Shown piece after piece: positions 38,196-57,103 of a DNA stretch of 64,000 nucleotides. Numbering within the stretch: position 1 is the first letter of the stretch; the number at the start of each line of letters is the position of its first letter. Below the pieces are notes generated by a model. The model ran no database searches, was not told the origin of the DNA, and was given only the letters and a program-made list of their open reading frames with translations. Made by a program: the position numbers and the translations under genes. The stretch is from Hyphococcus sp. (GTDB taxonomy: Bacteria > Pseudomonadota > Alphaproteobacteria > Caulobacterales > Parvularculaceae). The stretch covers positions 1-64,000 of the forward strand of contig JANQON010000002.1 in the NCBI GenBank assembly GCA_028289605.1. Direction: 5' to 3'.

Positions 38196-38996
38196 CTATG
38201 TGCGTCTGATATCGCTGACGTCGGCTCTAAACTGCAGAATGTCGCCGACGCGAACAATGGCGCCTTCAGCTTCGACGGGATCGGCGACGAACGGCAGGAT
38301 ATCTTCGCCAAACGCGTTGCCGTCCGCGTCCGTCATCAGCATGACGACTTCGCGGCCGGAATCGGTGCGCGCCCAGAAGCTCGGGGGAATCCCGCCGCGA
38401 ATGCACAGACTTGCGCAGGCTTTGTGCGTCTTGCCGCGCCCCGGGCGCATGACGCCAAAAAAGCACTTTGAGTCCATGATGTTGCCGGCGAGGCGCGCCG
38501 TCCCGAGAGGTTCCTCCTGCGGAATGGCGACGGCTGTCTCTCCGGCGGCGCCATCTGCGTCAAACAGCCATTCATCCACGAACAACGGCACTTCCAGCAT
38601 CTGACGCTCTTTACGCTGAATAAGCACCCCTTCGGCGCGTACGGGGCGCCCGGTCGCGCCGGCGAGGTCGAGCCCGCTGGTGCATTTGCCTTGCGCGACA
38701 ACGAGTACTGTTCTGACGCCGTCAGGCGCGGCCGGGTCGGCCGTATAGATCATGGGATAGGGCCGGTTCACCAAGACGCCCGTAACGCTGTGCGTTGCAT
38801 TCGTGAGCCAGGCGCCGGCCCCGGGGTCGGAGAGGTTCGAGGCGACGGCGTAGGCCGCGCCTGTCGTTACGGCCAGCGATGCCGGCAGCGCGACGAGCAA
38901 AAAACGGCGATCGACGGCGGGCGCGCCGGCCCAGCCGATGAACATGTCTTCCTTGTCTTTCGCGGCGGGATTGAGCACGCCTTTTTCCAAGGTCAT
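38196..38996 (-). CDS. Membrane-anchored protein with Cys/His motif, unknown function
   Basis: A 266-residue protein. A membrane helix (FLLVALPASLAVTTGAAYAV) lies near residues 32-51. The rest is probably periplasmic and has a conserved-looking motif: NIMDSKCFFGVMRPGRGKTH, then KACASLCIRGGIPPSFW. Similar Cys-x-G...His-x2-Cys-Ala-x2-Cys-x3-G-x-P motifs occur in putative metal- or haem-binding periplasmic proteins, so cofactor binding is possible. It is the last of four overlapping minus-strand genes; its start overlaps the Rieske/ferric-reductase gene by four bases. Confidence 0.7.
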   Translation of the reverse strand: MTLEKGVLNPAAKDKEDMFIGWAGAPAVDRRFLLVALPASLAVTTGAAYAVASNLSDPGAGAWLTNATHSVTGVLVNRPYPMIYTADPAAPDGVRTVLVVAQGKCTSGLDLAGATGRPVRAEGVLIQRKERQMLEVPLFVDEWLFDADGAAGETAVAIPQEEPLGTARLAGNIMDSKCFFGVMRPGRGKTHKACASLCIRGGIPPSFWARTDSGREVVMLMTDADGNAFGEDILPFVADPVEAEGAIVRVGDILQFRADVSDIRRT

Positions 38997-40054
38997 GAGG
39001 CGCCTCCTTCCGGCAGCAGAATGGGTTCGGCGCGCTCTCCGGGCTTGTTCGCGCGCGGATCGACCATGACCATCCCATTTTCTAAACGGGCATTGTACGT
39101 AGCGACTTTTTCCGTGAATGGCGGCGGCGAGACCCCGTCCTCAGGCCGATATTGCCAGCCGTGCCACGGGCAGGTCACGCAACCGTCGACGATGCGGCCT
39201 TCGCCGAGCGGCCCGTTCTGATGTCGGCAGACATTGGTGATCGCGGAAATCTTGTTGTCGTAACGAAACACCGCCACCCGCTCGCCATTGGGCAAGGGCG
39301 CAATCACGGCCCGGTCGAGCGGAATGTCGCCCGGCGCCGCGACCGCAATCCACCCTTGTTTCTTCAGGCGGCGCATGCCGCTGTCGGCGGCCCATTCGCG
39401 CAATCCCGTATACAGATGAAGCCCCGACACAAGCGCAAAGGCGCCAAAGGTCATCACCGGATAGAGCGCTGCTTTTTCCGTATATAGGGCGCCCAGCACG
39501 ATATGCAGCACGAGCAGCGCATAAGCCGGGTAGACCATCATGTGCAGCGCCTTCCAAACCGGCGCGGAAAGGTTGTTCAGCCAGAAATCATGACTTGTCG
39601 CCGCCATCAGAAAGAGAACAACAAACGCAACGAGGCCAAAAATCTCAAATGGAAAGCCTGGAATGGAGTCGTATTCAGCGTTGCTGACGAAGAGAGAGAC
39701 GAGCGGATTGATCGGGCCGCCGCCGTGATACCAAAGGAGCGCAAGACCGAAATGCGCCGTCGCAACAAAAAACGTGATCACGCCCAGATGGCGACGGTTA
39801 TAGAGCAGCGGGTTAAACCGTTTCGACATCCGGGCGAGGGGCCCGATCATCAAAATAATCGTCAGCATCGTAAAGGCGGCGACGCCGAGCGCCCGGATCA
39901 TCAACACGACCGGGTCCGCCGTGTGACCAGCATCTGTCGGCATGAGGCCGACAACCATAAAAACGACAAGGAATACAGCGAGCGCGGCCAGGATATAAAG
40001 ATCGTATACGACCTTGTTCCCGTTCCACTGGATGGCCTGATATTGATGTCCCAT
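38993..40054 (-). CDS. Ferric-reductase-like membrane domain fused to a Rieske domain
   Basis: A 353-residue membrane protein. Six or so helices lie in residues 15-220, with four candidate haem-b ligands (H89, H101, H171, H184) in the paired arrangement of ferric reductase-like domains. The C-terminal part is a Rieske [2Fe-2S] domain with C276-x-H278 and C295-x2-H298 (CRHQNGPLGEG, CPWHGWQY). Electrons probably pass between membrane haem and a cytoplasmic Rieske centre. It is coupled to a 47-residue protein upstream (TAATG overlap) and to a 266-residue protein downstream. Confidence 0.85.
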   Translation of the reverse strand: MGHQYQAIQWNGNKVVYDLYILAALAVFLVVFMVVGLMPTDAGHTADPVVLMIRALGVAAFTMLTIILMIGPLARMSKRFNPLLYNRRHLGVITFFVATAHFGLALLWYHGGGPINPLVSLFVSNAEYDSIPGFPFEIFGLVAFVVLFLMAATSHDFWLNNLSAPVWKALHMMVYPAYALLVLHIVLGALYTEKAALYPVMTFGAFALVSGLHLYTGLREWAADSGMRRLKKQGWIAVAAPGDIPLDRAVIAPLPNGERVAVFRYDNKISAITNVCRHQNGPLGEGRIVDGCVTCPWHGWQYRPEDGVSPPPFTEKVATYNARLENGMVMVDPRANKPGERAEPILLPEGGAS

Positions 40055-40197: not shown

Positions 40198-40445
40198 GCG
40201 GCGTCTCCACTGTTGGACTCGATCGGCGCATTGATTTTGCGGAAGGACAAGAACCGGATCAGCATGATCGGCCACAGCCCGATCACGCCCGGCAGAATAA
40301 TAAGTCGGAAGCGCCAGGATGCGCCCTCGGCGGCATGGTCAATGCGCGCGACAGCAAAAAACGCATAAGCAAGCCCGACAAGAACGCCGATGGCGAGATA
40401 CGCCCCAACCCCTGTCCAAATCGCCTGAGCCAGATCAATCGTCAC
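40194..40445 (-). CDS. Small two-helix membrane protein, first gene of the Rieske operon
   Basis: An 83-residue protein starting at GTG 40445 behind a strong GGAGGGG site. It has two membrane helices (TGVGAYLAIGVLVGLAYAFF and FRLIILPGVIGLWPIMLIRF) and a polar tail. No family is recognised. It begins the minus-strand operon of four overlapping genes and is divergent from the Rieske-thiamine-diphosphate fusion gene. A longer frame starting at 40502 is unlikely because it lacks a ribosome-binding site. Confidence 0.7.
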   Translation of the reverse strand: MTIDLAQAIWTGVGAYLAIGVLVGLAYAFFAVARIDHAAEGASWRFRLIILPGVIGLWPIMLIRFLSFRKINAPIESNSGDAA

Positions 40446-40628
40446 GTCGCCCCTCCGTTCGCCCGAGTTTTGGATTGTGATTTGCCTTCTCGCAAATTGC
40501 AAAACACGATGCGATCACATTTCGATTCGGCGGGAAAATACCTTATGTTGAAGCGGTTTTTGAGCCTATTTTCGGGCGAGCGCGGCGGTGCGGTCGAACG
40601 CCGGGATGCAACGGGAGAAAGCAGTCTG
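40446..40628. promoter_or_regulatory. Divergent region with nested inverted repeats
   Basis: Between the small membrane-protein operon and the Rieske-ThDP gene. It holds a perfect repeat ATTTGC-CTTCTC-GCAAAT at 40480-40497, and an outer pair TGTGAT (40476-40481) / ATCACA (40514-40519). These are candidate operator sites that could control both directions. Confidence 0.5.
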
Positions 40629-42626
40629 ATGAATAATCAAGCGCAGCCGGGCGACGCCGATCTGGAATGGCATCGGGTCGCAGACCGGGATCAGCTTCCC
40701 GAGGGCCGGGTGATTTCGGTCACGGCCGGAACGAAGACATTGGCGCTTGTTCATTTCGACAACCAATATGCTGCGATGGACAACCGCTGCCCGCATCAGG
40801 GCGGCCCGTTGGGCGAGGGCTCGATTGAGAAGGGCGTCGACGGCAAATGCTGGCTTCGATGTCCGTGGCACGGCTGGGACTTCGATCCGCTGACCGGTAA
40901 ACCGCCTGGCGGACACGAGGACAGCGGCCAGGAGACTTATCCAGTTGAGTTGCGCGATGATGGGATTTATGTCGGCGTCCCGCCGCAGCCCGCCCATATT
41001 CAGGACGTGTCCGACGTCATGGTCGGAACCATGGTCAATTGGGGCCTAAAGCGTGTCTTTGGGATGGTTGGGCACTCCAACCTCGGGCTCGCGGAGGCGT
41101 TCAGGAAGCGCGAAGCGCAGGGCGACATCAGCTATGTCGGCATTCGCCACGAGGGCGCGGCGTCTTTCGCGTGTTCAGGTTACGCAAAATTGTCGGGGCG
41201 GCCGGCGGCGTGTCTGTCCATCGCCGGTCCCGGCGCAACCAATCTCCTGACCGGGTTGTGGGATGCAAAGGTTGACCGGGCGCCGGTGATCGCCTGCACC
41301 GGGCAAGTGCAAACGCAGGTGTTCTCGCCCTTTGCTTTCCAGGACATTGACCTTCTTGCAGCGTTCAAGCCTGTCGCCGCGTTCAGCCACATGGCGTTGC
41401 CGGATTCCAACCCCGGCGAGCTCGCTACCCTCGCCATGAAAACCGCGCTTGTAGAGCGCGACGTCGCCCATCTCGTGTTCCCTGATGACGTCCAGACCAT
41501 CAAAAAACCGGATGCGAAACCGGGCTCGCCGGAAGGGCGCATCGGCAGCGTGAAAATGGCGCCTGACCCGTCAAGCGTCGCTGAAGCCGTCAAGGAAATA
41601 GCAAGCGCGCGGCGGCCGCTGATCATTGTTGGCTATGGAGCGCGCCAGTCGATGCCGCAGGTTATTGCTCTGGCGGAGACGCTGAGGTGTCCGGTGGTGA
41701 CGACCTTCAAGGGCAAGGGACAGATCCCTGACACGCATCCAAACGCGGGCGGCGTTTTGGGTCGGTCCGGCACGCCCATCGCCAGCTGGTTTATGAATGA
41801 ATGCGACCTTATCATCGCTCTCGGCGCGTCGTTCTCCCATCACACGGGCATCGAGCCGAAAAAGAAAATCGTCCAGGTCGATTTCGATCGGATGCATCTG
41901 GGCAAGGGTCATCCCGTCGCCGTTCCGGTATGGGGCGAACTCAGCGTGACGCTGGAGGCGATGATGCGCGACCTTAGTCGCGGCGTCGCCGCCGAAAACC
42001 AAATGGAAGAAATCAAAGACCGTTGGGCGATCTGGCGGCGGGAAAAGGAAAGTCGGTTGAGCGACGACCGGGGCCACGGCGTTTCTGCGGCCTCGCTTTT
42101 CTCGGCGATGACGAAAATTGTGCCGGGGAATGCGGTGATGCCGGTCGATGTGGGCAACAACACGTATTCTTTCGGTCGTTACTTTGAGCCCTGCGGACAA
42201 TCGGTGCTCATGTCCGGGTATCTGGGGTCTATTGGCTTCGGCTTCCCGGCCGCGATGGGCGCCTGGGCGGCGACGCAGGACTTTCCGGAGTATCGCGGCC
42301 GCAAGGTTGTTTCCATTTCCGGGGACGGCGGGTTTGGTCAGTATGCGATGGAATTTACGACCGCCGTGCACTACAACATGGATATCACGCATATTCTGAT
42401 GAACAACGGCGAACTGGGAAAAATCTCCAAGGAACAGCGCTCAGGCGAATGGCGGGTATGGCAAACGGATCTCACCAATCCGAGTTTCGCCGCTTTCGCG
42501 GAAAGCTGCGGCGGTCTTGGGATCCGCGTTGAAAAAGCGGCTGATCTTGAGCGTGAGATCGCGCGCGCAATCGCCCATGACGGCCCGGCCTTGGTCGAAG
42601 TCCTCACCGACGCCGAGCTGATCTAG
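40629..42626 (+). CDS. Rieske domain fused to thiamine-diphosphate enzyme
   Basis: A 665-residue fusion. Residues about 15-115 form a Rieske ferredoxin-like domain with C54-P-H56 and C78-P-W-H81. Residues about 125-660 form a three-domain ThDP enzyme of the acetolactate synthase/pyruvate oxidase superfamily. The cofactor-activating Glu is E175 (RHEGAASFA). The central domain has GRSGTPIASWF. The ThDP-binding motif runs from G565-D-G to N592-N593 (SGDGGFGQYAME, MNNGELGKI). ATG 40629 is chosen because GGGAGA lies upstream; ATG 40545 would add 28 residues. The substrate is unknown, but a 2-oxo acid is likely from the superfamily. Confidence 0.87.
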   Translation: MNNQAQPGDADLEWHRVADRDQLPEGRVISVTAGTKTLALVHFDNQYAAMDNRCPHQGGPLGEGSIEKGVDGKCWLRCPWHGWDFDPLTGKPPGGHEDSGQETYPVELRDDGIYVGVPPQPAHIQDVSDVMVGTMVNWGLKRVFGMVGHSNLGLAEAFRKREAQGDISYVGIRHEGAASFACSGYAKLSGRPAACLSIAGPGATNLLTGLWDAKVDRAPVIACTGQVQTQVFSPFAFQDIDLLAAFKPVAAFSHMALPDSNPGELATLAMKTALVERDVAHLVFPDDVQTIKKPDAKPGSPEGRIGSVKMAPDPSSVAEAVKEIASARRPLIIVGYGARQSMPQVIALAETLRCPVVTTFKGKGQIPDTHPNAGGVLGRSGTPIASWFMNECDLIIALGASFSHHTGIEPKKKIVQVDFDRMHLGKGHPVAVPVWGELSVTLEAMMRDLSRGVAAENQMEEIKDRWAIWRREKESRLSDDRGHGVSAASLFSAMTKIVPGNAVMPVDVGNNTYSFGRYFEPCGQSVLMSGYLGSIGFGFPAAMGAWAATQDFPEYRGRKVVSISGDGGFGQYAMEFTTAVHYNMDITHILMNNGELGKISKEQRSGEWRVWQTDLTNPSFAAFAESCGGLGIRVEKAADLEREIARAIAHDGPALVEVLTDAELI

Positions 42627-44579: not shown

Positions 44580-46892
44580 ATGAACTGGGCGCGGAAAATA
44601 TCCGAACGCATTGAGCGACTCTCGTTCCGCACCAAGATCGGACTCGCGACAATCGCCGCCTGCGCGGCGACGGCGCTGATCGCCTGTATCGCTTTCATCA
44701 TAAACGAGTCGCTGACCTATCGTCTTCGGTTTGACCGTGAACAGGAAACGCTTTCTGAGTTGTTGGCCGCGAATGTAACCGCGGCTGTTTTATTCGGGGA
44801 CAATGTTTCCGCAACGGACATCCTTAGCGCCACGAGGTTGACGCCTCAGGTCGACGCTGTCGTGGTGAATACGCCCGACGGAGAAGTCTTTGCGTCTTAC
44901 GGCGATCTTGGATCGATACAAGTCGGCGCGGAAGGACGGTACAGCCAGGTCACGCCCCACAACGGTCCGGTCTATGTCAGCGCAATCGACATCGACAACG
45001 AGGTCATCGGTCACCTCATACTGTTCACCAATTTGAGCGATCTCGAAAAAACGATCTGGCGCTACAGCCTGATCGCGTTCTTCGTTTTCCTGGGCTCCAC
45101 CTTATTCGCAATCCTGTTTGCGCGTTGGGAATCCAGAGCGATGACGACGCCGATGTTGCAGTTGCGGCGGACAATTCAGGCTATTCGCGGCACCCGAGAT
45201 TACTCTTCCCGCGTTCCGCCGTCCCTGGACCGGGATTTCGGCCGCCTCATCGACAGTTTCAATGCCATGCTCGTTGAGATTGAAAGCCGCGACGAAAGAC
45301 TGGAGTCCCTGGTTGGCGACCTCATCACGGCGCGGGACGCAGCGCAGTCCGCCAACACGGCTAAATCACAGTTCTTGGCCAATATGAGCCATGAACTGCG
45401 CACCCCGTTAAACGCGATTATCAATTATGCTGAGATCATCCAGGAAGATCTGGAAGAAGGCGGCGACGAGCAAACGCTTTCGGATGTTTCAAAGATACAG
45501 GGCGCCGGCCTCCACCTTCTGGAACTGATCAACGGCATTCTGGACCTTTCCAAGATCGAAGCCGGCAAAATGGACGTCGAAGCGCATCCATTCGACGTCG
45601 GATCCATCATCCGCGAAGCGGCGGATACCGTTCGTCCCGCTGCTGAACGCAACGGCAACCAGCTTGTTGTTGAAATCGCGCCAGACGTCGGCGCCGCCGT
45701 TACGGACTCGTTCAAGCTGCGTCAATGCGTGCTGAACATTCTGAGCAACGCATGCAAGTTCACCAGCAATGGCGACGTAAAGCTTGCACTGCGATTGGAC
45801 GAAGCAACGGACTCGATCGTCATTGCCGTCTCAGACACGGGAATTGGCATGAACGATTCCCAAATGAAGTCATTGTTTCAGGCGTTCGTTCAGGCGGACA
45901 CCTCTACAACGCGAAAATACGGCGGGACCGGCCTCGGCCTTACCATCACGCAACGACTGATATCGCTTCTCGGCGGGCGCATTGAGGTCACAAGCACAAT
46001 GGGCGAGGGAAGCTGCTTTACGCTGATCGTCCCACGTGAGTTTTCCTCGTCAGAAAACGATCAGGCGGCGCCCCGTGAAAGCTCTGCAACGCTTCAGCAG
46101 CCCGCGGGCGCGGGCCGCACTGCGCTCATTGTCGACGATGATCCGAGTGCGCGGGAATTAATGGGACGCCTGGCGTCCCGTCTGAATTATTCGACGGTGC
46201 TCGCCGAAGACGGCGAGCAGGCTTTGCGTCTTGCGCGCAGCGAAAAACCGTCCGTCGTTCTTTTGGATCTGCACATGCCGGTTGTCGACGGTTGGACGGT
46301 GCTGCAGCGCATGCGCGCCGACCCGGAACTGCGGTCAATCCCAACGATTGTCGTGAGTGTCGATGACGACGCCCAAGCCTGTTATCGGCTGGGAGCCGAA
46401 GACTATCTGACGAAACCGGTCAACCGGGTCGAGCTTGAGCGGGCGCTGCTTTCTTACAGCAAGCTCGCCAGCGGCGATATTTTGATCGTTGAAGACAATG
46501 AAGCGGCTGCTGACCTGGTCGCGCGCGCCGCAAAAAATGTCGGTTTCGAGCCGGTCATAGCGAAAAACGCCGAGGAAGCGCTCTCGCTGCTCAACGAATC
46601 GAAAGTTGTAGGCATCATCCTCGACCTCGGCCTTCCCGGCATGAGCGGCTTTGAATTACTCGATAACCTGCGTGCGATTGAGCAACGAAAAGACATTCCT
46701 GTCATCGTTTTCTCCGCACAGGAACTGACGGCCGACGAGCTCGCATCAATTGAGCAAAAAGCCCAAGGCTATCACGTCAAATCCATGACGTCGCCGCGCA
46801 AGGTGATTTCCGAACTGATGAGTAAATCCGCAGTTTCGACGGCCGCACGGCCCGATGACGCTGAGGAAGGGGAGGAACGATGCGCATCCTAG
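44580..46892 (+). CDS. CHASE8-HAMP hybrid sensor histidine kinase with two REC domains
   Basis: A 770-residue inner-membrane kinase. Helix 1 spans residues 20-42. A periplasmic CHASE8 domain follows (about 48-155; LLAANVTAAVLFGDNVSATD). Helix 2 spans 160-182, and a HAMP linker runs to about 240. The HisKA phospho-His is H271 (SHELRTPLN). The ATPase has N390 and GGTGLGL near 448-454. REC1 has D563 and K612; REC2 has D682. CHASE8 is the domain of YfiN that is held by YfiR, and a YfiR gene lies in this operon. ATG 44580 has AGGGGG upstream. It overlaps the next gene by 13 bases. Confidence 0.92.
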   Translation: MNWARKISERIERLSFRTKIGLATIAACAATALIACIAFIINESLTYRLRFDREQETLSELLAANVTAAVLFGDNVSATDILSATRLTPQVDAVVVNTPDGEVFASYGDLGSIQVGAEGRYSQVTPHNGPVYVSAIDIDNEVIGHLILFTNLSDLEKTIWRYSLIAFFVFLGSTLFAILFARWESRAMTTPMLQLRRTIQAIRGTRDYSSRVPPSLDRDFGRLIDSFNAMLVEIESRDERLESLVGDLITARDAAQSANTAKSQFLANMSHELRTPLNAIINYAEIIQEDLEEGGDEQTLSDVSKIQGAGLHLLELINGILDLSKIEAGKMDVEAHPFDVGSIIREAADTVRPAAERNGNQLVVEIAPDVGAAVTDSFKLRQCVLNILSNACKFTSNGDVKLALRLDEATDSIVIAVSDTGIGMNDSQMKSLFQAFVQADTSTTRKYGGTGLGLTITQRLISLLGGRIEVTSTMGEGSCFTLIVPREFSSSENDQAAPRESSATLQQPAGAGRTALIVDDDPSARELMGRLASRLNYSTVLAEDGEQALRLARSEKPSVVLLDLHMPVVDGWTVLQRMRADPELRSIPTIVVSVDDDAQACYRLGAEDYLTKPVNRVELERALLSYSKLASGDILIVEDNEAAADLVARAAKNVGFEPVIAKNAEEALSLLNESKVVGIILDLGLPGMSGFELLDNLRAIEQRKDIPVIVFSAQELTADELASIEQKAQGYHVKSMTSPRKVISELMSKSAVSTAARPDDAEEGEERCAS

Positions 46893-47278
46893 TCGCCGAA
46901 GACAATCCGGAAAACCAGGAAATCATACGACGTCGCCTTGAGCGCGCCGGTCATGAAGTCGTGATCGCCGCAAACGGACGTGAAGCGGTTGAGATGGCTC
47001 AATCGCAAGATCCTGCGCTCGTCCTCATGGATGTCAGTATGCCTATTTTGTCCGGTCTCGAGGCCACCCAGGAAATCCGGCAGATCGACGATGTCTGCAA
47101 AAAGCCGATTATTGCGCTGACGGCGCATGCGATGGAAGGCGACGAAGCCAAGTGTCTCGCCGCAGGATGCAATGCGTTCGCTACGAAGCCCATTCGCTTC
47201 GCTGAGCTGAACGCGCTCATTGAACGAGTGATTGGCCAGGAGTCAGGCCGCCAATCCACAGCCGGGGGGGACTCCTGA
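46880..47278 (+). CDS. Single-domain response regulator
   Basis: A 132-residue CheY-like receiver with no output domain. The acidic pair is in VAEDNPENQ, the phospho-Asp is D51 (LVLMDVSMP), and the Thr/Lys positions are IALTAHAME and FATKPIRF. It starts inside the end of the hybrid kinase gene, and its stop overlaps the next start (TGATG). It probably shuttles phosphate between the two kinases or to a histidine phosphotransfer protein that is not in this window. Confidence 0.93.
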   Translation: MRILVAEDNPENQEIIRRRLERAGHEVVIAANGREAVEMAQSQDPALVLMDVSMPILSGLEATQEIRQIDDVCKKPIIALTAHAMEGDEAKCLAAGCNAFATKPIRFAELNALIERVIGQESGRQSTAGGDS

Positions 47279-48573
47279 TGCCGCTGAACAACAAAAAGGA
47301 TGTCGATCCGCCGACAGTCTTTATTGTCGACGACGAAGCCTACAATCGCGACATCGCCGCACGGTATGTGAGCAAGCTTGGAATGCGAACCAAGGAGTTC
47401 GAAAGCGGGGCGGCTGTTGTTGACGCGCTGTCTGAGCGTATTCCCGACCTGATGTTGCTTGACATTCATATGCCCGGCATGAACGGGCTGGAGGTGTTGG
47501 AAAAAGCGCGGGAGCTGGGCCCTAAGACGGACTTTCCGATTCTGATGGTGACGGCGGACTCCGATCCGGATTCGGTTGTCGAAGCGTTTGAGCTCGGCGC
47601 CAATGACTATGTCACCAAGCCGATCGAATCGCGCACACTGCGCGCCCGTCTCGAAGCGCATCTTTATCTGAGCATTGCAAACCGCCAGAATCGAGAGTTT
47701 GCAGAGGGCGCGGAGCGCCTGATCGCAGATCGGGAACTCGATATCCAAAAACGCAATGAGGACCTCGTCCGTGAAGTGACATTGCGGATGACGACCGAAG
47801 AGGAATTGCGGGAAGCCAAACGGCTGGTCGAAGGCGAGAACCGCGCAAAGTCAGAATTCCTCGCCCTGCTGAGTCACGAACTCATCACGCCGCTTCATGT
47901 GGCCTTGGGCTTCGCAGATCTGATTGGATCCGACGCCAACGACCCGGTCTCACTCGAGCAAAGCCAGGAATATGCGCGTCATATCTCCTCCAGCATGCGT
48001 CAGCTGCTGGCGACAATGAAGGACATGCTGACACTCGCGCGACATGACGTTGGCAAGCTGAACATCAGCGAAGCGGAAATCGCGCTTTCAACATTGCTGG
48101 AACAGGCCGTTGACGGCGCATCTGAAATTCAGCCGGATGCGGGCGTAAAAGTGGAGGTCGATTGCGAGCCGGGAGTCGAACTTCTGGGCGACCGCGTTTT
48201 GCTATTGCGCGGCGTAACCGGGATCGTCTCCAACGCCATTAAGTTTTCGCACAAAGGCGCGGTTTGCCAAGTCTCGGCGAGCGTGCGGGGCGACGGCGGC
48301 GTGTCGCTGGTCGTCCGCGACCAAGGGGTCGGCTTCGATACAGACAAGATAGATGACCTTCTCAAACCGTTTCGACAGTCGTCGAGCGGTCTGGATCGCC
48401 GGCATCAAGGCATCGGCGTCGGTCTTCCGTTAGCCAAAGCCGTTCTGGAGAAGCACGGCGCCACAATGAAGTTCACCAGCAAACCGGGCGTCGGCACCGA
48501 AGTCACGCTCGCCTTTCCGGCCTACAGAACGCTTTCTGTCGGTCGTTCACATGTTCAACAAGCCGCAGGATGA
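47278..48573 (+). CDS. Receiver-histidine kinase hybrid (soluble)
   Basis: A 431-residue cytosolic protein with an N-terminal receiver (D62 in LLDIHMPGMNG, K114 in VTKPIE), a coiled-coil linker (about 130-190), a HisKA domain and an ATPase domain. The phospho-His is H200 in LLSHELITPLHVAL; the usual R-T-P-L is I-T-P-L. The ATPase has VRDQGVGFD and HQGIGVGLPLAK. With no membrane or PAS sensor, its input is likely phosphorylation of its own receiver. It is coupled on both sides: its start overlaps the response regulator stop, and its stop overlaps an ATG upstream of the TonB receptor signal peptide. Confidence 0.9.
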   Translation: MPLNNKKDVDPPTVFIVDDEAYNRDIAARYVSKLGMRTKEFESGAAVVDALSERIPDLMLLDIHMPGMNGLEVLEKARELGPKTDFPILMVTADSDPDSVVEAFELGANDYVTKPIESRTLRARLEAHLYLSIANRQNREFAEGAERLIADRELDIQKRNEDLVREVTLRMTTEEELREAKRLVEGENRAKSEFLALLSHELITPLHVALGFADLIGSDANDPVSLEQSQEYARHISSSMRQLLATMKDMLTLARHDVGKLNISEAEIALSTLLEQAVDGASEIQPDAGVKVEVDCEPGVELLGDRVLLLRGVTGIVSNAIKFSHKGAVCQVSASVRGDGGVSLVVRDQGVGFDTDKIDDLLKPFRQSSSGLDRRHQGIGVGLPLAKAVLEKHGATMKFTSKPGVGTEVTLAFPAYRTLSVGRSHVQQAAG

Positions 48574-48611
48574 AGCCTGCCAGCAAGGTCTCCGTCAAAG
48601 GGGAAAAAGCA

Positions 48612-50645
48612 ATGCGTAACGAAACAAAACTGAATCATTGGATGTGCGGCGGGTCGCTGATTGCGATCGGCTGCCTGTTGTCCGGAGCGGCCAGCGCGCA
48701 GACCGACGAAAAAGACTTCACAAGCATGTCGCTTGAGGATCTGATGGCGGTCGAAGTGACAACGGCGTCCAAGCGGCCAGAGCTGGCGAGCGAAGCAGCG
48801 GCGGCTGTTTTCGTTCTGACCCGGGAAGATATCTCCCGGTCCGGTGCGGTGACCATCGCCGACGCGCTCAGGCTGGTGCCCGGCGTCAATGTCGCCCGCA
48901 TCAACTCGAATTCCTACGCGGTCACGGTAAGGGGATTCAACAGTCGCTTCGCCAACAAGCTGCTGGTGATGATCGACGGGCGGACTGTGTTTACGCCGCT
49001 GTTTTCGGGCGTCTTCTGGGATCAGCACAATGTTATCCTTGAAGATATCGAACGCATAGAAGTGGTGCGCGGTCCGGGCGGCACGCTTTGGGGCGCCAAC
49101 GCCGTCAACGGCGTTATCAACATCATCACCCGTTCCAGCGAAGACACCAAAGGCCTGCTGCTGCAGGCGTCTGGCGGCAATGAGTTTCAGTCGCAGGCGG
49201 TGTTTCGCTATGGCGGCGAGATGGGCGACAACGGCGCCTTCAGAATTTTTGGAAAATACGAAGCGTTTGATGAAGGTGAAACGGCGCTTGGAGCGCAGGC
49301 AAACGACGACTGGCGCAATTTCCGCGGCGGATTTCGAACCGATCATCAGCTGAGCGAGCGCGACTCGCTTATTGTCACCAGCGAAGTGTCCTTCATCGAT
49401 TCCGGCGAAACGGTCGATACGCCGTTATTTACAGCGCCGTTCCTGGAACGCCGCGATGAGGATATTGAACGCGTTGGCGCCCATATTCTCGGCCGGTGGA
49501 CCAGGGCCATCGACGCACAGTCCGAACTGTCCGTACAGGGCTACATTGACTACTCCCAGATCGAGATCCCGCAGGGCGAGGAAAAGCGGCTTACATTCGA
49601 TCTGGCGGTTCAGCACTCGTTTCCCATCGGCGATAACCACGATTTCCTTTGGGGAGCGGGGTTCCGCAATATCAGCGATGATATCACAGACAGCGAACTC
49701 GTCAGTTTTCCGGACTCGTCGCTGTCTGTCCAAATCTACAATGGTTTCGTTCAGGACACGATCAGCGTCGCAGACAATCTCGATGTGACGCTGGGCGCCA
49801 AGTTTGAGCACAATGACTACACTGGGTTTGAAATTCAGCCGTCGGCGCGGTTCCTTTGGCGGCCGGAAAAGAACGTAACGCTGTGGGGCGCTGTTTCGCG
49901 CTCGGTGCGGATACCCTCCCGTGCGGAAGACGGCGTTCGCACCATCGCATCGGTTGTGCCTCCGGGCGTTCCGGGCAATCCCAGCCCGCTTCCCTTGGCG
50001 ATTGAGTTCACCGGAGATCCGACCATCGAGTCGGAGTCGTTGATCTCTTATGAAGCCGGGGCGCGGTTGCGGCTGCAGCCAAACGTGTCACTGGACATCG
50101 CCGCCTTCTACAACGACTACGACAACCTCCGCGGTTCTCGCATAGGCGCTGTGACGATTTCTCCGACAACGCCCCCGTTTGCGATCTTGCCGCTGACCGT
50201 CGACGAATTGGTCGAGGCGAACACCCACGGCGTTGAGACGGTGCTGGACTGGCAGGTAAAACCGCAATGGCGGCTTCAGGCGACATACTCTTACCTGGGC
50301 GTAGACGGCGACGTTCCGGTCGCGCCGGATATATCGGCGTCGGCGCCGGGCGGGTCTGATCCGACTCATTCCGCGACGCTTCGGTCGCTGTTGGAGTTGA
50401 ACAAACGCGTGCGTTTCGACACGACGGCGCGGTTTGTGGATGACCTGGACGGCGCCGGCATCGACTCCTATGTCGCCTTTGATGCGCGTCTTGCATGGCG
50501 CGCGACGGAGACATTGGAAATTTCCGTTACCGGTCGAAACCTGACCAACAACGATCACTTCGAATTTGGCGTCGACCAGTCTTTTGCGACGGTGCCGACC
50601 GCCATCGAACGCAGCGTATTCGCAACCATTAGCGCGAAGTTCTAA
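48612..50645 (+). CDS. TonB-dependent outer-membrane receptor
   Basis: A 677-residue receptor. After a signal peptide (LIAIGCLLSGAASAQ) comes SLEDLMAVEVTTASKRPE, a segment common in receptors that sit beside YfiR and kinase genes. The plug domain follows (ADALRLVPGVNVARI, VTVRGFNSRFANKLLVMIDG, IERIEVVRGPGGTLWGANAV, NGVINIITR), then a 22-strand-type barrel ending in FATISAKF with a terminal aromatic. Start is ATG 48612 with AAAGGGG upstream; ATG 48570 overlaps the kinase stop. Its place in a signalling operon suggests a sensing or gating role. The ligand is unknown. Confidence 0.93.
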   Translation: MRNETKLNHWMCGGSLIAIGCLLSGAASAQTDEKDFTSMSLEDLMAVEVTTASKRPELASEAAAAVFVLTREDISRSGAVTIADALRLVPGVNVARINSNSYAVTVRGFNSRFANKLLVMIDGRTVFTPLFSGVFWDQHNVILEDIERIEVVRGPGGTLWGANAVNGVINIITRSSEDTKGLLLQASGGNEFQSQAVFRYGGEMGDNGAFRIFGKYEAFDEGETALGAQANDDWRNFRGGFRTDHQLSERDSLIVTSEVSFIDSGETVDTPLFTAPFLERRDEDIERVGAHILGRWTRAIDAQSELSVQGYIDYSQIEIPQGEEKRLTFDLAVQHSFPIGDNHDFLWGAGFRNISDDITDSELVSFPDSSLSVQIYNGFVQDTISVADNLDVTLGAKFEHNDYTGFEIQPSARFLWRPEKNVTLWGAVSRSVRIPSRAEDGVRTIASVVPPGVPGNPSPLPLAIEFTGDPTIESESLISYEAGARLRLQPNVSLDIAAFYNDYDNLRGSRIGAVTISPTTPPFAILPLTVDELVEANTHGVETVLDWQVKPQWRLQATYSYLGVDGDVPVAPDISASAPGGSDPTHSATLRSLLELNKRVRFDTTARFVDDLDGAGIDSYVAFDARLAWRATETLEISVTGRNLTNNDHFEFGVDQSFATVPTAIERSVFATISAKF

Positions 50646-50647
50646 GG

Positions 50648-51259
50648 ATGGGGCGAATGCCGCAGATAAGAGTAGCATCACTGCTGCGAAGCGTCCGATC
50701 GGCCTGGCGCGCCTTGGCGCCGTTGGCCGGCGCAGCCCTTGCGCTTGGATCGCCCGTTTCGCACGCGCAGACGAATGCCGCGGATAATCCGGGCGCCGTA
50801 GAAGCGGCGTTCCTGTTCAATTTCGCGAAGTTCACAACCTGGCCCACCATTAATGACCTCGATACCTCAATCACATTCTGTATCCAAAGCGGAACGATTG
50901 ATCCGGAAGTATTCGCGGGGTGGGGCAACAAGCGTGTTCAAAACAGACCCGTGCGCGTCATCTTCTTCGGTGAAGCGAACGACGTGCAACAAGCGGACTG
51001 TTCGATCATGTTCATCGGAAAATCGATGCAGGACGTCGATCTTTCTCGGCTTCTGTACAGCGCCCAGTCACACTCGACCTTGCTGGTGTCCAATATTAAC
51101 GGCTTCAGCGACTATGGCGGGCATATCGAACTGTATATCGCAAATCGCAGGCTTCGCTTCAAAGTAAATTTGCAGGAATTGCTGTCGGCGGATCTGGCGC
51201 TCGGCGCCGGCGTGCTGAGCCTTGCCGAAATTGTCGAAACGACGGGGCGCTCGCAATGA
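50648..51259 (+). CDS. YfiR family (DUF4154) periplasmic protein
   Basis: A 203-residue exported protein. A long signal peptide ends near SPVSHAQ. The YfiR fold follows with the family hallmarks AAFLFNFAKFTTWP (residues about 53-66), FCIQSG, RPVRVIFFGEAND, CSIMFIGKS, STLLVSNINGFSDYGGHI and IANRRLRFKVNLQ. In Pseudomonas YfiR is a periplasmic repressor of the CHASE8 diguanylate cyclase YfiN. Here the only CHASE8 protein in the operon is a histidine kinase, so this is its likely target. It begins two bases after the TonB receptor stop and overlaps the acyltransferase gene (ATGA). Confidence 0.92.
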   Translation: MGRMPQIRVASLLRSVRSAWRALAPLAGAALALGSPVSHAQTNAADNPGAVEAAFLFNFAKFTTWPTINDLDTSITFCIQSGTIDPEVFAGWGNKRVQNRPVRVIFFGEANDVQQADCSIMFIGKSMQDVDLSRLLYSAQSHSTLLVSNINGFSDYGGHIELYIANRRLRFKVNLQELLSADLALGAGVLSLAEIVETTGRSQ

Positions 51260-51957
51260 CGAATGCAGCCCCCAGTATTGAATCGTTCGAGGACAAGAAC
51301 CTCTCGCTTCAAATCTCCCGAAGTCCGGATCATGTGGGCCGTTGTCAGCGGCTCCGCTACAAAGTCTACTGCGTCGAGCGCGGCTGGTATGATGAGGTTC
51401 GGATCTCAAAAGGCCATGAGCTCGACGCATACGACAATCGCGCCCACCATGCGCTTCTCATTCGAAATGACAATGGCGAGGGGATCGGCGTGGTTCGCTT
51501 GGTTATTCCAAGCCGCGACGACGATGGTCCGGATCTGCCGATCCAGGAGATCACCCCAGATCCGCTGACCCTGATCAAAGAGCCTCTCGACTGGAACCGC
51601 GTTGCGGAGGTGTCCCGGTTTGCAGTGACGCGCGAAGCGCGCAACTGGATGCCGGCAGCGGCCTACATGAACGGCGCCGATCGGTCATCGTCCGTACCGC
51701 GATCGTCGATTTTTTCGATCTTTCTCATGCGTGCGATTGTGCTGATGGCGCGGGCAAACAACATAGAGTATCTATGCGCGACGATGGAGCCGTCGCTGAT
51801 TCTCCATCTCGGACGAATGGGCATACGCTTTGATCCGCTTGGCGAGCCAAAAGAGTATCACGGATTGCGCCAACCCTGTTACGCGAGTCTGGCGCGCATC
51901 GAATCGGATATGCGCCGCGACCGTCCGGACGTGCACCCGATGGTGTTTCCGGACTGA
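51256..51957 (+). CDS. LuxI/PEP-CTERM-type acyltransferase (GNAT fold)
   Basis: A 233-residue acyltransferase related to autoinducer synthases and to the PEP-CTERM/exosortase-associated acyltransferases. Seen are the N-terminal RLRYKVYCVERGWYDE (like the R-x2-Y-x-V-x-V/C-E region of these families), GIGVVRLVIPS, and WNRVAEVSRFAVTREARNW. The last matches the E-x-S-R-F-x-V region of LuxI-like enzymes. The C-terminus contains HLGRMGIRFDPLGEPKEYHG. The product is unknown; an acylated small molecule is inferred. It is the last gene of the six-gene signalling operon. No cognate LuxR solo is adjacent. Confidence 0.82.
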   Translation: MTNAAPSIESFEDKNLSLQISRSPDHVGRCQRLRYKVYCVERGWYDEVRISKGHELDAYDNRAHHALLIRNDNGEGIGVVRLVIPSRDDDGPDLPIQEITPDPLTLIKEPLDWNRVAEVSRFAVTREARNWMPAAAYMNGADRSSSVPRSSIFSIFLMRAIVLMARANNIEYLCATMEPSLILHLGRMGIRFDPLGEPKEYHGLRQPCYASLARIESDMRRDRPDVHPMVFPD

Positions 51958-52007: not shown

Positions 52008-53162
52008 CTAAGGCCTGATATCGAGGGGTTCGCGTTGTGCGGGCGTCTGCGCTGCGACGCCTTGGGCGCTCAGGCGCGGCGGATCGCGTCGTGACCGCAG
52101 TTTCCAGTCGCTTTTTTGATTTGATTGACCGGCGGTAGGGTCGGTAATGAAAATGTCGAGCATCTGCCCCACATAGAGCGGCTGTCTGTTTCCCGTTCGG
52201 TCGATGCGATATCGCGCTTCAAGCACCCTTGCGTCGGCGTACTCAACGGCGCCGTCCCGAAATGCGGACTTCGGCTTTAACTGCGGCTCCATGGAAACAA
52301 AGACAAGCGGGATCGCTTCGCCGTTTCCGCCGCGCAGATAGGCTGAGGCGCTTGCGTTCGGATGGAAGCGATGGGTTTGCGTCTCATCGATTTCGACGCG
52401 CGCATGAAGCGTATCGATATCGCCGATGGAAACAAATGGGACCGCGCGATCCGCCGGCCGAACGGCTTCGCCGATTCTGGCGTCGACGCCTAATACGGTC
52501 GCATCAATGGGCGCTCGCATGACCGTTCGTTCCAAGTCAACCTGAGCCGCCGCCAGCGCCGCCTGCGCCAGCGCCGCGTCTTCCTTAGCCGCCGCCGCGG
52601 CGGCGTCCGCCGCATCCGCGGCGTGAAGCGCCTGGCGAAAGGCGAACGCCGCAGCCTCCGCATCGGAAACAAGCTTGTCGAAATCCTCCGCGCTCATGGC
52701 TTCCGATGCAATCGGTCGATAGCGCTCTACGGTCGTCTGCAAATGAGAAGCCCGGCTGCGCGCCGCTTCCGCCGCGGCCGCGGCGGCGCGCGCATCGGCC
52801 TGGCGCACGTCAATCTCTGCGAGCGCTCTGGCCGCCGCAGCCATGGCCTGCTCTACGGCGGCGCGATGGAGCCGGTCGTCGAGCGAGAAAAGCGCTGCGC
52901 CGGCTGTCACTTTCTGGCCGGGCTCCACCATGATGGCGTTAATTATCCCGTCCGTGTCTGGTGTAATCGTCAGCGTTCGGGACGACGGTTCTATGACGCC
53001 GGAGGCGGCGATAGCGGAATCGTATGGCGAAACCACCATGTCGCCGGGCGGCGTGCGGCGTTCGTTCTGAGGCTGAGACTGCGTTACCGCCGCCACTGAG
53101 AATGTCAGCGCCGCAGCTGCTGCGCTATAGTAAAACCACTCTATGCGAAACCGGACCTTCAT
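52008..53162 (-). CDS. Membrane fusion protein of a DevB/HlyD-type ABC exporter
   Basis: A 384-residue periplasmic adaptor with an N-terminal membrane anchor ([17 protein letters not shown]). The lipoyl/barrel-sandwich halves are [20 protein letters not shown] with [19 protein letters not shown], and [20 protein letters not shown]. Between them is a long Ala-rich coiled coil (about 110-215). A C-terminal beta domain ends in [11 protein letters not shown]. The tail is basic and disordered. It is the last gene of a minus-strand permease-ATPase-adaptor operon, the DevBCA arrangement; its start overlaps the ATPase stop by one base. Confidence 0.86.
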
Positions 53163-53890
53163 CAGGCGGCCCTCTGCCCCGCCGAATCGGCGCCCTTGTT
53201 GCGGGTTAAGTTATGGTCCGCGATGACAAGTCCGTCTTCCAGCTCGATGAGCCTGTCTGCGAACGAAAAAACCCGTTGGTCGTGGGTGACGACGATGACA
53301 GCGCGACTTTCCTGCGCGGCGATCTCCTTCAGAATCTCCATGACCGTTTCGCCCGCTCGCGAGTCGAGAGCGGCCGTCGGCTCATCGCAAAGAATAAGCT
53401 CAGGCCTGTGGACGAGCGCCCGGGCGATGGCGACGCGCTGCTGTTGCCCGCCGGACAGCCGCTTGGGTAGTCGGTCCGCGATGTGGCCAATATCCAGGCG
53501 TTCGAACTCGCGGCGCGCGGCGGCGCAGGCTTTCGCCGCCGGCGTCCCGGCAATGATTAGCGGCATGGCGGCATTTTCAACCGCGGTGAGCGCCGGCACC
53601 AAGTGATAGTGCTGAAAAATGAAACCGATATGGCGTCGGCGAAATCCGGCCATTTGCGAGGGGCGCATGGACGACAGTCGTCGCCCAAAAACGTCGAGCG
53701 TACCACCGGTATGCGCCAGGGCGCCGCCCAGAATGGACAGGAGCGTCGTCTTTCCGCAACCGCTCGGCCCGGCAATGATAGTCAGCTCGCCGCTTCGGAT
53801 TTGAAGGTTTACGCCGCGCAATACGTTGCGCCACCCTTCGCCTTCGCGAAAACGCATCTGGATATCCCGACATTCGACAGCATAGTCCAT
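53162..53890 (-). CDS. ABC exporter ATP-binding protein (DevA/MacB-like)
   Basis: A 242-residue ATPase. Walker A is GPSGCGKTT near residue 39, the Q-loop [12 protein letters not shown], the signature [15 protein letters not shown] near 145, Walker [13 protein letters not shown] and the switch His in [19 protein letters not shown] 53890 gives the usual N-terminus [13 protein letters not shown]; a much longer frame from 54118 is not supported. It sits between the permease and the adaptor gene, with 5 bases after the permease stop. Confidence 0.92.
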
Positions 53891-53895
53891 AGCGG

Positions 53896-55029
53896 TCACC
53901 CTTGAAGAACTCTTGCGGGTGCGTATCGAACAGCGCGTTGTATACTGAGTAATCCAGACGCTAACGAAATCGCGAAGACGGCGAGCGCAGTTTTCAGGAA
54001 AACGCCGGACGGCAAATAAAACCCTTTGAACGCTGCGACTTTGTCGGGAACGGTTTCGAAAAACCAGGCGGCGCCGGCGATTCCGAGGCTGAAGCCGATG
54101 GCGGCGATGACGATGCACTGAGCGGCTGTCATCGAAATGAGTTGACCGGCCTTGGCTCCCATCGCTTTGAACACAGCGAGATACCGAAGGTTCTCCGACA
54201 CAAATAAATAGAACGTCTGAGCCACAATGGCCGTTCCGACGATAAAGCCGAGCGTGATGGTGATCGCAAAATTAATCGGGATGCCGGTATTCGTAAGGTA
54301 GTAATCGATGGTGATTTCACTGAACGCTTCTTTTTCAAACGCGCCGTATCCGGTGCGTTCCGCGATCGCCGCGGCGACGTCTGCGGCGGCTGCCGGGTCG
54401 TTCGCGCGCGCCAGGATGAATCCCGGCGCAATTGACGGCCGAATGAGTTTCGCGGTTTCCGTACTGGTATAGATGAGGGGCATCGAAATGAATGGCGACG
54501 GCGGATCCGCGATTCCAACCAGGTGAAGCAGTCTGCCGTCGACTTCCAATCTGCGGCCGAGTTCGATGTCGTCTCCTGGCCATATGTCGTTATAGCCGCG
54601 CCGGTCGACGATGAATGCGTCGCTCGCCCGCAGCGACCGGAACGATCCGGCGACCAGTTTCTGAGGGGCGCCCATCAATGAATAGGGATCGAGTCCAATC
54701 AGGATTCCCTGCTCAACCATTGTTGTTGAATCGATGACGACGCTTGAGCGCATATAGGGCGCCGCCGCGGCGACGCCGGGGACGCTCTTCACTCTTTCCA
54801 CCAATGCTTCGGGAAGCGCGCCGGGATCGTCGAAGTAATCGGCACGCATGTCGGCGACCCAGATATCAACGTCCTGCGCCGCTGCGATATGCGACGCAGA
54901 GTTTGCCATCAGGCAAACGAATATCGCAGCCTGCTGCGCCATCAGGAGCGTTGAGAAGGCGACGCCAAGGACCATCGCCGCAGATTTGCCTGCGTCGGCC
55001 CACAAAATCTTAAGGGCAATGGAAAGCAT
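53896..55029 (-). CDS. ABC exporter permease (FtsX/DevC-like)
   Basis: A 377-residue permease. Helix 1 (SAAMVLGVAFSTLLMAQQAA) is near the N-terminus, followed by a periplasmic domain of about 220 residues (DVDIWVADMRADYFDDPG, ALPEALVERVKSVPGVAAAA) and three helices near 250-370 (FAITITLGFIVGTAIVAQTF, CIVIAAIGFSLGIAGAAWFF, ALAVFAISLASGLLSIQRAV). This is the FtsX/MacB layout, and the W-V-A-D-M-R segment is typical of DevC-type permeases. Likely cargo is a lipid or glycolipid by family analogy only. A CtrA-like box lies upstream. Confidence 0.86.
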   Translation of the reverse strand: MLSIALKILWADAGKSAAMVLGVAFSTLLMAQQAAIFVCLMANSASHIAAAQDVDIWVADMRADYFDDPGALPEALVERVKSVPGVAAAAPYMRSSVVIDSTTMVEQGILIGLDPYSLMGAPQKLVAGSFRSLRASDAFIVDRRGYNDIWPGDDIELGRRLEVDGRLLHLVGIADPPSPFISMPLIYTSTETAKLIRPSIAPGFILARANDPAAAADVAAAIAERTGYGAFEKEAFSEITIDYYLTNTGIPINFAITITLGFIVGTAIVAQTFYLFVSENLRYLAVFKAMGAKAGQLISMTAAQCIVIAAIGFSLGIAGAAWFFETVPDKVAAFKGFYLPSGVFLKTALAVFAISLASGLLSIQRAVRYAPARVLQG

Positions 55030-55163
55030 GCGCCCACCTGTTAATCCGTTAATGATTTAAAGGGCGCGACGTTAAAACCGGTTTAAGAATAACCGATTTA
55101 AGGTGTTCAGTTTACGATCTATTAACCAGGCAACCTGTTGAAATCACAAGGCGGTTGCAGTCG
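55030..55163 (-). promoter_or_regulatory. CtrA-like box and TTAA cluster upstream of the exporter operon
   Basis: TTAA (55072-55075), seven bases, TTAA (55083-55086) is an exact TTAA-N7-TTAA site, the consensus of the alphaproteobacterial cell-cycle regulator CtrA. Its centre AAACCGGTTT is a 10-bp palindrome. Three more TTAA tetramers repeat every eight bases at 55041, 55049 and 55057, and others occur at 55098 and 55122. The exporter promoter must lie here because the upstream kinase gene ends at 55164. Confidence 0.6.
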
Positions 55164-57005
55164 TCAGGACGCAATTTGGGAAAGATTTCGCCCGCCTCGC
55201 CACTTCCTGACCATCTCCTCAATTTCGTCCTGAGAAAACGGTTTCGTCATGAAGTCGTCCATGCCGGCCTCAATGCACTTTTGGCGATGACTGAGATCGT
55301 GGTTCGCCGTCAGTGCGATGATGGGCGTCATCGACACCGGACCGCGCAGCTGACGGATTTTTGTCGTCGCCTCAAGGCCGTCCATCGTGGGCATATTCAT
55401 ATCCATGAGGATCAGATCGAATGCGTTGTCGGATATCGCCTTGATCACCTCAGCGCCGTTCTCGGCGACGATCACGCTGTGACCGGCGCGTTCAAGCAGC
55501 GTCCTCGAAAGCAGCGCGTTGACTTTGTCATCTTCCGCCAGCAACACGCGCAGAGAATGCGAGCCCTCATCTGCCTCGGGTGTTGATTGCGTCACGTCGC
55601 GGTCGCCCGATCGCCGGCGGGGCTGGGACGGGGAGGAGTTGTTTAGGATGCTGACGAGCGTGCCCGTGCGGATCGGTTTGATGAGATAGCCGTCAAACCC
55701 GATGCGCCGGAAGCTCTCGATGCGTCCGCGCGTCGCGGGCGTCAGCATCACGTAGGCCGCATAGGCGTCCCGGGTGATTTTCGGCCCAGCTTCAAACGCC
55801 AGGTCATAATCGCACATAAGAACCGGGGAGAATGCGTTCTCCAGCGCGCTGATGGCCTGGGAGGCCGATTTGCAAAGCACTACATTGTCCGCCCCGGCGG
55901 CTTTGAGCTGCATGTTCAGATAGCGGCTGACGATGGGCGAACGTGACGCAATAATATAGGGCGCGGTGGGATTATCGAGGCGCGGCTGGTCTTCGCAGTG
56001 CGCGTCTTCCACCTCCAGGGAAAGATAAACGGAGAAGACGCTTCCGGCGCCGAGCGCGCTCTCGACGCGAATCTCGCCGTTCATCGCGTCAACAATCTTC
56101 TTGACGATCGCAAGGCCGAGACCGGTGCCCTCGCTGCGCCGCGCGCGACCGGAATCAGCCTGGGCGAATTCCTCGAAAATCCGGTTTTTGTCGTCATCTG
56201 CGAGACCGACGCCGGTGTCGCGAACGTCAATACGCAACGCGCAAGCATCTTTCGGTTGCGTCTTCCGGACATGAATTTCAATCGTCAAGCCGCCATGTTC
56301 GGTGAACTTCACCGCGTTGCCGGCGAGATTGAACAGAAGCTGCTTTAGCCGCAATTCGTCTCCCCGCAGCAGTTTGGGCGTCTTGGGGTCGATGAACGCC
56401 GCGATCTCAATATTCTTGTGCGCGGCGCGCGGGGACAGGAGTTCGGTAACGCTCTGCACTACCGCTCGCAGGTCCACGGGTGCATTTTCTAATTCCATTT
56501 CTCCGGCGGCGAACTTGGAATAGTCGAGAATATCGTTAACGAGCGTCAACAGAGTCGACCCGGAATCGTGAATGGCGTCGACATAAGTTCGTTGCGACGC
56601 TTCCAGACGGGTGTCGAGCAGCAGTCCGCTCATGCCGAGAATGCCGTTCAGCGGCGTGCGCATCTCGTGGCTCATGGACGCAAAAAACCGCATCTCGTCC
56701 GCCGCCGCATGAGACTTGCGATCGCGCGAGTCATCGCCGCATATGGTGCGGCCGAAAAACAGGGTTACATCGTCCGCGATCGTGTTCGCGAGCCACTCAT
56801 AGGAAAAGCCGGTTGTTTCATCGCGAACGACGCCGCAACCGGCGTCCGGAAGTCCTTTGAGCTGAAATTCCTTGCCGACCCAGTCTTCATGGCCGCCGCT
56901 GAAAAGCGTGCAGAAGGCTTCGTTGACATAGAGTGCGGTCTTGTCCGCCGAAACGGCGACTACGGCGCACGCCAGTTTATCGAATATGGAGAATTGTTCT
57001 GACAT
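55164..57005 (-). CDS. Hybrid sensor histidine kinase (PAS-HisKA-ATPase-REC-like-REC)
   Basis: A 613-residue soluble kinase. An N-terminal PAS-like domain (about 5-90) is followed by HisKA with phospho-His H113 ([15 protein letters not shown]). The ATPase has N230 and GTGLGL at 293-298. A degenerate receiver-like domain (about 350-455) keeps an Asp in MCDYDLA and a Lys in LIKPIR. A full C-terminal receiver has D535 (LILMDMNMP) and K588. Start is ATG 57005 with GAGGG upstream. It lies upstream of the exporter operon on the same strand but has its own gap on each side. The sensory ligand is unknown. Confidence 0.92.
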
Positions 57006-57103
57006 CCGCCCTCGCTGCCCCAAGCCTATGGCCGATTATTTGAGAATTCGTGTCGCGGGATAGTTAACGGACGGTTTCCAAGAAGCGTGAAACGCGACGT
57101 AGT

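Follow-up and report, generated by a model that had tools for sequence, protein, structure and literature searches.

A YfiR-linked CHASE8 hybrid kinase operon with a TonB-dependent receptor and a predicted acyl synthase in Hyphococcus sp.

What does YfiR control where the CHASE8 domain encoded in its operon belongs to a histidine kinase? The question is raised by a six-gene operon of Hyphococcus sp. (Alphaproteobacteria; Parvularculaceae), which occupies positions 44580-51957 of the 64,000-nucleotide stretch of DNA analysed here (GenBank assembly GCA_028289605.1, contig JANQON010000002.1, positions 1 to 64,000, forward strand), referred to below as the window. The initial annotation took the operon for a possible rewiring of the YfiBNR system of Pseudomonas, with a CHASE8-bearing kinase in place of the diguanylate cyclase YfiN. 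In our opinion, the operon probably encodes a YfiR-gated phosphorelay in which a TonB-dependent receptor (TBDR) plays the role of YfiB, a reading to which we give a probability of about 0.7.

All six open reading frames (ORFs) lie on the + strand, and their coordinates and Pfam domains agree with the earlier description of six mostly overlapping genes. The first gene (44580..46892, +) encodes a hybrid histidine kinase of CHASE8-HAMP-HisKA-HATPase-REC-REC architecture, in which CHASE8 scores 55.4 bits against a Pfam cut-off of 27; it is followed by genes for two further proteins assigned by Pfam, a stand-alone receiver domain protein (46880..47278, +) and a receiver-HisKA-HATPase protein, or receiver-kinase (47278..48573, +). 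Next come the TBDR, with plug and barrel (48570..50645, +), whose nearest NCBIfam model is the TOL_0244 family (630.7 bits, cut-off 645), and a YfiR-like periplasmic protein (DUF4154, YfiR/HmsC-like; 50648..51259, +; 108.6 bits, cut-off 24.9). The last gene (51256..51957, +) encodes an exosortase-system-associated acyltransferase of family TIGR03694 (LuxI/FeeM-like; FeeM/Acetyltransf_5 in Pfam). At four of the five junctions the genes overlap, by 13, 1, 4 and 4 bases, and only 2 bases separate the TBDR gene from yfiR, so that translation of the six genes is probably coupled; a scan for promoters and terminators found no more than in shuffled sequence. The search for the same arrangement elsewhere, which the initial annotation had proposed, recovered the identical six-gene order in three more genomes of the order (L055, L067, L068), and a Parvularcula draft contig (L006), which starts inside the TBDR gene, carries the last three cassette genes at its cut end. 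The same order in four genomes, together with the strong co-occurrence described next, rules out chance adjacency of the six genes.

The YfiR search covered 150 genomes from the order, 385 from the class and 398 from the phylum, and the order and class genomes were searched for CHASE8 too; co-occurrence counts refer to genomes over both cut-offs, tallied from the search listings. In the class sample, 18 genomes carry both domains, 2 carry YfiR only, 6 carry CHASE8 only and 359 carry neither (p 7e-24), while in the order sample CHASE8 is present in 23/24 YfiR genomes vs 24/126 others (p 4e-13). The surroundings of 158 YfiR genes (1 from the window, 28 from the order, 22 from the class, 100 from the phylum and 7 from titled genome contigs) were annotated with a GGDEF motif and with profiles built from the domains encoded in the window. 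The order search gave 30 YfiR places, comprising the window, the 28 taken and 1 weak match (G126) that was excluded; the class search gave 27, of which 22 were taken, 2 were already included and 3 weak ones were excluded; the phylum search gave 124, of which 100 were taken, 8 were already included and 16 low-scoring ones (at most about 87 bits) were excluded. A CHASE8 gene lies on the same strand within 7.5 kb of 137 of the 158 YfiR genes, and its output domain is a kinase in 106 cases and GGDEF in 26, the remaining 5 genes being truncated or of unknown output.

The residues thought to join the two partners are kept as well. The YfiR-binding site of YfiN has been mapped to the motif AAVVF (A66, A67, V68, F70), and a hydrophobic patch of V160, F162 and L183 has been proposed for YfiR (Malone et al. 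2012, PMC3375315). In the window kinase, AAVLF aligns with AAVVF and retains A66, A67, V68 and F70; in the window YfiR, L169/F171/L192 align with V160/F162/L183. Across the survey, the YfiN F70 column is F in 103/105 kinase-type and 26/26 GGDEF-type CHASE8 domains, and the YfiR F162 column is F in 84/106 kinase-type and 24/26 GGDEF-type loci. Nine full-length CHASE8-like proteins that are unlinked to yfiR or divergently placed were compared with these. Four of them (L051, L071, L081, L082), all from genomes with YfiR, carry AA(V/I)xF; the motif is missing in L083, which is also from a YfiR genome, through L086, and in L087, whose genome has no YfiR, the sequence is PVVF.

Co-divergence points the same way. 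In 71 trios of TBDR, YfiR and kinase, the pairwise identity of YfiR tracks that of CHASE8 most closely (r 0.84), followed by that of the TBDR (0.62) and that of the kinase core of the same protein (0.54); for distant pairs, r is 0.35 with CHASE8, 0.11 with the TBDR and 0.05 with the kinase core. By bootstrap, the YfiR-CHASE8 correlation differs by 0.22-0.37 from that of the kinase core and by 0.16-0.28 from that of the TBDR. Thus, YfiR and CHASE8 keep together like a single unit, whereas the kinase core is swapped. The window YfiR and the CHASE8 region, each used as a single sequence against the PDB, found no relative; a profile of 20 YfiR relatives matches solved YfiR with an E-value of 5.6e-33. 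An AlphaFold model of the window YfiR, built from 8 sequences (mean pLDDT 79), has YfiR chains as its top 15 PDB matches (TM-score by target length 0.71-0.79). The CHASE8 model (pLDDT 81.5, pTM 0.54) scores modestly against sensors of the Cache/PAS type (WalK, a LapD ortholog, CitA), and the CHASE8 profile gives marginal PDB matches only. Linkage, conserved interface residues and co-divergence back the earlier proposal that the two are partners, and it is most likely, judging from the sequences, that the target of YfiR is the CHASE8 domain of the operon kinase.

The kinase output itself is not the rarity that it was taken for. The phylum set of 100 YfiR genes holds 59 kinase-type and 26 GGDEF-type loci, a ratio that may lean to kinases because the 16 excluded low-scoring places may include GGDEF-type loci, besides 4 that are cut and 11 without CHASE8; all 26 GGDEF-type loci of the survey belong to this set. 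Kinase output is thus the commoner form in this sample, and the form had already been described by Malone et al. (PMC3375315), so the operon loses its standing as an unusual rewiring. A separate receiver-GGDEF gene lies close by in 8/106 kinase-type loci (L010, L012, L119, L146, L154, L157, L191, L200), so the output need not be free of c-di-GMP, and the earlier claim of a phosphorelay output "and not c-di-GMP" is unproven. Some loci depart from the usual layout. In L054, L124 and L127, a TBDR and YfiR are followed by a kinase with no recognised CHASE8, and sensor domains of other kinds may also be targets of YfiR. In another member of the same family (L071:7874-13547), yfiR is divergent from a CHASE8 hybrid kinase, a lone receiver and a receiver-kinase, and no TBDR or acyltransferase match was found in the 16 kb around it.

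What, then, stands at the outer membrane? In the phylum set, a TBDR is encoded near YfiR in 46/59 kinase-type vs 6/26 GGDEF-type loci (p 2.6e-6), and a YfiB-like OmpA motif in 14/26 GGDEF-type and 0/59 kinase-type loci. Over the 85 phylum loci of known output, the TBDR is present in 52, the YfiB-like motif in 14 and both in none. Pfam finds no OmpA domain among the six operon proteins. OmpA motif matches beyond the phylum set (L121, L068 and the window) are off the canonical motif and were judged to be chance; the sole match near the window operon is an ORF antisense to the HlyD gene. A same-strand TBDR also accompanies 16 of the 21 YfiR genes that lack a same-strand CHASE8. This mutual exclusion in gene neighbourhoods backs the suggestion of the initial annotation that the receptor stands in for YfiB, and supports the view that the TBDR occupies the place held by YfiB in Pseudomonas-type loci. 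In the open-access literature of PMC, judged by titles and abstract openings, no paper was recognised on a TBDR as the outer-membrane partner of YfiR.

A stretch resembling SLEDLMNxEVTSxSK recurs before the plug of YfiR-linked TBDRs, including that of the window (48570-50645). The first regular expression for it matched 22/101 linked and 2/17 unlinked receptors; a looser pattern, written after the sequences had been viewed, matched 82/97 full-length linked receptors vs 16% of shuffled prefixes, and some unlinked receptors also have such a stretch. It is a possible contact for YfiR or TonB, and should be regarded as a lead.

The sixth protein (ACYLTRANSFERASE) scores 168 bits against TIGR03694 (exosort_acyl; cut-off 111.95), the PEP-CTERM/exosortase-associated acyltransferase family, and is weakly similar to solved acyl-homoserine lactone (AHL) synthases. 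It fails the NCBIfam cut-offs for AHL synthases (22.5/292 and 17.3/250), and its Pfam Autoind_synth match barely passes (26.6, cut-off 24). The protein is likely to be an N-acyl amino acid synthase. TIGR03694 exceeds its cut-off in 4/150 genomes of the order, in all four directly 3' of yfiR in the six-gene cassette; 9 more genomes of the order match weakly, below the cut-off. The Parvularcula draft genome adds a fifth yfiR-linked case, in which the first three genes lie beyond the contig start. The phylum sample (344 genomes) has TIGR03694 over the cut-off in 22 genomes besides this one, and at none of the 22 loci, counted one per genome with 7 further over-cut-off places left aside and one locus short at a contig end, is there YfiR, TBDR, CHASE8 or a kinase within 1.5 kb. 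This genome has three exosortase matches. Of 30 genomes of the family that were searched for exosortase, 29 have it, among them all four TIGR03694 carriers, vs TIGR03694 in 4/150 of the order, which rules out the presence of exosortase alone as the reason for the acyltransferase. To our knowledge, the purpose of exosortase-linked acyltransferases is unsettled.

From the parts and their order, the YfiR-CHASE8 pairing, the conserved interface and the exclusion between TBDR and YfiB motif, we infer how the system might work. In the resting state, periplasmic YfiR would bind the kinase CHASE8 directly through its C-terminal hydrophobic patch and hold the kinase in one state. A ligand-bound TBDR at the outer membrane would take up YfiR or pass the ligand to it, and CHASE8, once freed of YfiR, would switch the kinase. 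Phosphoryl groups would then pass by way of the receivers of the kinase to the other two proteins, lone receiver and receiver-kinase. In this lineage, the operon has acquired a gene resembling those of acyl-amino-acid synthases, and the product made by its enzyme is a candidate ligand; for a receptor whose gene adjoins that of an acyl synthase, a hydrophobic ligand would be fitting. That the whole forms a cell-to-cell or self-monitoring system, with the TBDR as receptor and YfiR as periplasmic switch, strikes us as improbable.

Several points weigh against this gated phosphorelay, and they bear on the alternatives. CHASE8 occurs without YfiR in 24/47 CHASE8 genomes of the order and 6/24 of the class, so that CHASE8 alone does not imply control by YfiR; the co-divergence values signify pairing, not contact, among related sequences that are not independent; and the GGDEF and OmpA neighbours were identified by motif only. 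Moreover, the genome encodes a second CHASE8 kinase that has no linked YfiR and carries the binding motif. The search of the 4.29 Mb assembly gave one YfiR match and two CHASE8 matches, the other being a hybrid kinase (CHASE8-HAMP-HisKA-HATPase-receiver; L051:6397-8823, on contig C17 of G000) whose gene lies between a calcineurin-like phosphoesterase gene and RND-type efflux genes. An unlinked CHASE8 diguanylate cyclase in this genome, which the initial annotation had named as the true partner that would overturn its proposal, was sought and not found, and the sole other CHASE8 match being a hybrid kinase, a hidden cyclase as partner of YfiR is ruled out. The C17 kinase itself could share the single YfiR, since its CHASE8 carries AAVVF, and one YfiR may thus serve two kinases. 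It even scores higher in the genome search (63.0 vs 56.5 bits for the operon CHASE8), and no YfiR lies near it. Against it as the main partner, alone or jointly with the operon kinase, stands the linked YfiR-CHASE8 pair conserved across genera, and we regard this explanation as quite unlikely.

The role of the receptor is where the other explanations divide. In 13/59 kinase-type phylum loci, some of them on short contigs, no TBDR is seen nearby, so the receptor may not be obligatory; this also agrees with a kinase controlled by YfiR alone, in response to envelope or redox stress, the TBDR and the acyltransferase being co-transcribed uptake and lipid genes of independent function. The lower YfiR-TBDR co-divergence (r 0.62) fits such independence, as do the columns of C78 and C118 of the window YfiR, where C is found in 75 and 77, respectively, of the 106 kinase-type YfiR proteins, and the existence of oxidised YfiR structures. 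Yet TBDR presence tracks output type and excludes the YfiB motif, and the acyltransferase is linked in 5/5 cases found in the lineage; we therefore consider independent genes unlikely. A better, still tentative alternative is that the TBDR never sequesters YfiR and instead imports a small hydrophobic molecule, which YfiR, in the role of a periplasmic binding protein, takes up before signalling, in its loaded form, to CHASE8. Weak binding of L-Trp and of vitamin B6 by P. aeruginosa YfiR, in the pocket that serves for YfiB, has been reported (PMC4887326), substrate-binding proteins rank 16-19 among the fold matches of the window YfiR, after the YfiR chains, and the TBDR-YfiR pairs kept in 16/21 loci without same-strand CHASE8 would also be accounted for. 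TOL_0244, namesake of the nearest receptor family, is described as up sevenfold on C28 alkane vs Tween 80 (PMC6304351) and as sharing 40.3% similarity with OmpS, a protein with a reported role in the detection of alkanes (PMC6304351; PMC5174103). The published YfiR affinities, however, are in the tens of millimolar, and sequestration of YfiR by the receptor accounts equally well for the TBDR/YfiB exclusion.

The cassette is followed by a convergent block on the - strand: an HlyD/DevB-like membrane fusion protein (52008..53162, -), a DevA/MacB-like ABC ATPase (53162..53893, -), a DevC/FtsX-like ABC permease (53896..55029, -) and a HisKA-HATPase-receiver hybrid kinase (55164..57023, -), the last also present beyond the cassette at each of the other three full loci. 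All four genes (52008-57023) are kept in L067 and L068, and L055 retains the kinase alone (matches with E up to 1e-20), so that exporter and kinase together lie beyond the cassette in 3/4 full loci; at the same threshold L006, part of which is masked, shows no match. The exporter is best named DevBCA-like only, because its scores fall below the NCBIfam cut-offs (DevB 59.4/129, DevA 221.2/295.8, DevC 47.5/290.35). Farther upstream, two ORFs were noted by eye: in one, a Rieske domain precedes a thiamine-diphosphate-enzyme-like region, an unusual fusion (40335-42626), and the other joins a membrane ferric-reductase-like region to a Rieske domain (38993-40054, -).

These findings matter beyond the one operon. 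YfiR modules of the kinase form, most of which have an adjoining TBDR, are more numerous in the phylum sample than those of the GGDEF form. FecA-type receptors use an N-terminal signalling domain and an anti-sigma factor. The exclusion between TBDR and YfiB motif leads to the testable proposal of an outer-membrane receptor that signals to an inner-membrane kinase without either; for receptors of this kind the acyl synthase of the lineage suggests a candidate ligand, and for exosortase-linked acyltransferases a possible function.

How does the operon compare with known systems? With YfiBNR of P. aeruginosa it shares the YfiR fold and interface residues, a CHASE8/PAS-like periplasmic domain with AAxxF, and HAMP. 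It differs in that the partner of YfiR has HisKA, HATPase and two receivers instead of GGDEF, and in that YfiB is missing; it has, in addition, a TBDR, two further proteins of the phosphorelay and an acyltransferase. Closer are the YfiR-YfiN[PAS] modules with histidine-kinase output and without YfiB reported by Malone et al. (2012, PMC3375315), in which YfiR is paired with a transmembrane kinase and the interface residues are kept. In the window, likewise, yfiR is linked to a CHASE8 transmembrane kinase with conserved interface residues and no yfiB; the lone receiver, the receiver-kinase and the acyl synthase are extra relative to the modules as described there. The word TonB does not occur in the main text of that paper.

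The trio of TBDR, YfiR and kinase also has its own NCBIfam models, TOL_0244 TBDR (NF053590), TOL_0243 YfiR-like (NF053591) and HK_near_YfiR_like (NF053592), the last named 'sensor histidine kinase, YfiR-like protein-associated'. All three partners are matched in the window, but below the cut-offs (630.7/645, 74/125 and 130.3/194), and the acyltransferase is an addition. The sixth protein resembles the TIGR03694 acyltransferases and FeeM N-acyl amino acid synthases in passing the TIGR03694 cut-off and in the presence of exosortases in its genome; it differs from the 22 other loci by its YfiR, TBDR and CHASE8 kinase neighbours. The HmrA pathway of Caulobacter crescentus offers a looser parallel, a hybrid kinase with a LapD-like periplasmic domain that has been proposed to feed a phosphorelay affecting c-di-GMP (PMC11481889); the CHASE8 model of the window also matches a LapD ortholog. 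As that cluster is presented there, neither YfiR nor a TBDR is named as part of it, and the proposed sensor is the small membrane protein HmrC (PMC11481889). Since YfiR-kinase modules were reported in 2012 and models exist for the trio, the cassette, as read from its genes, is a synthase-coupled variant of a known module, and what is new in it is the kinase placed first, the two extra phosphorelay proteins and the linked acyl synthase.

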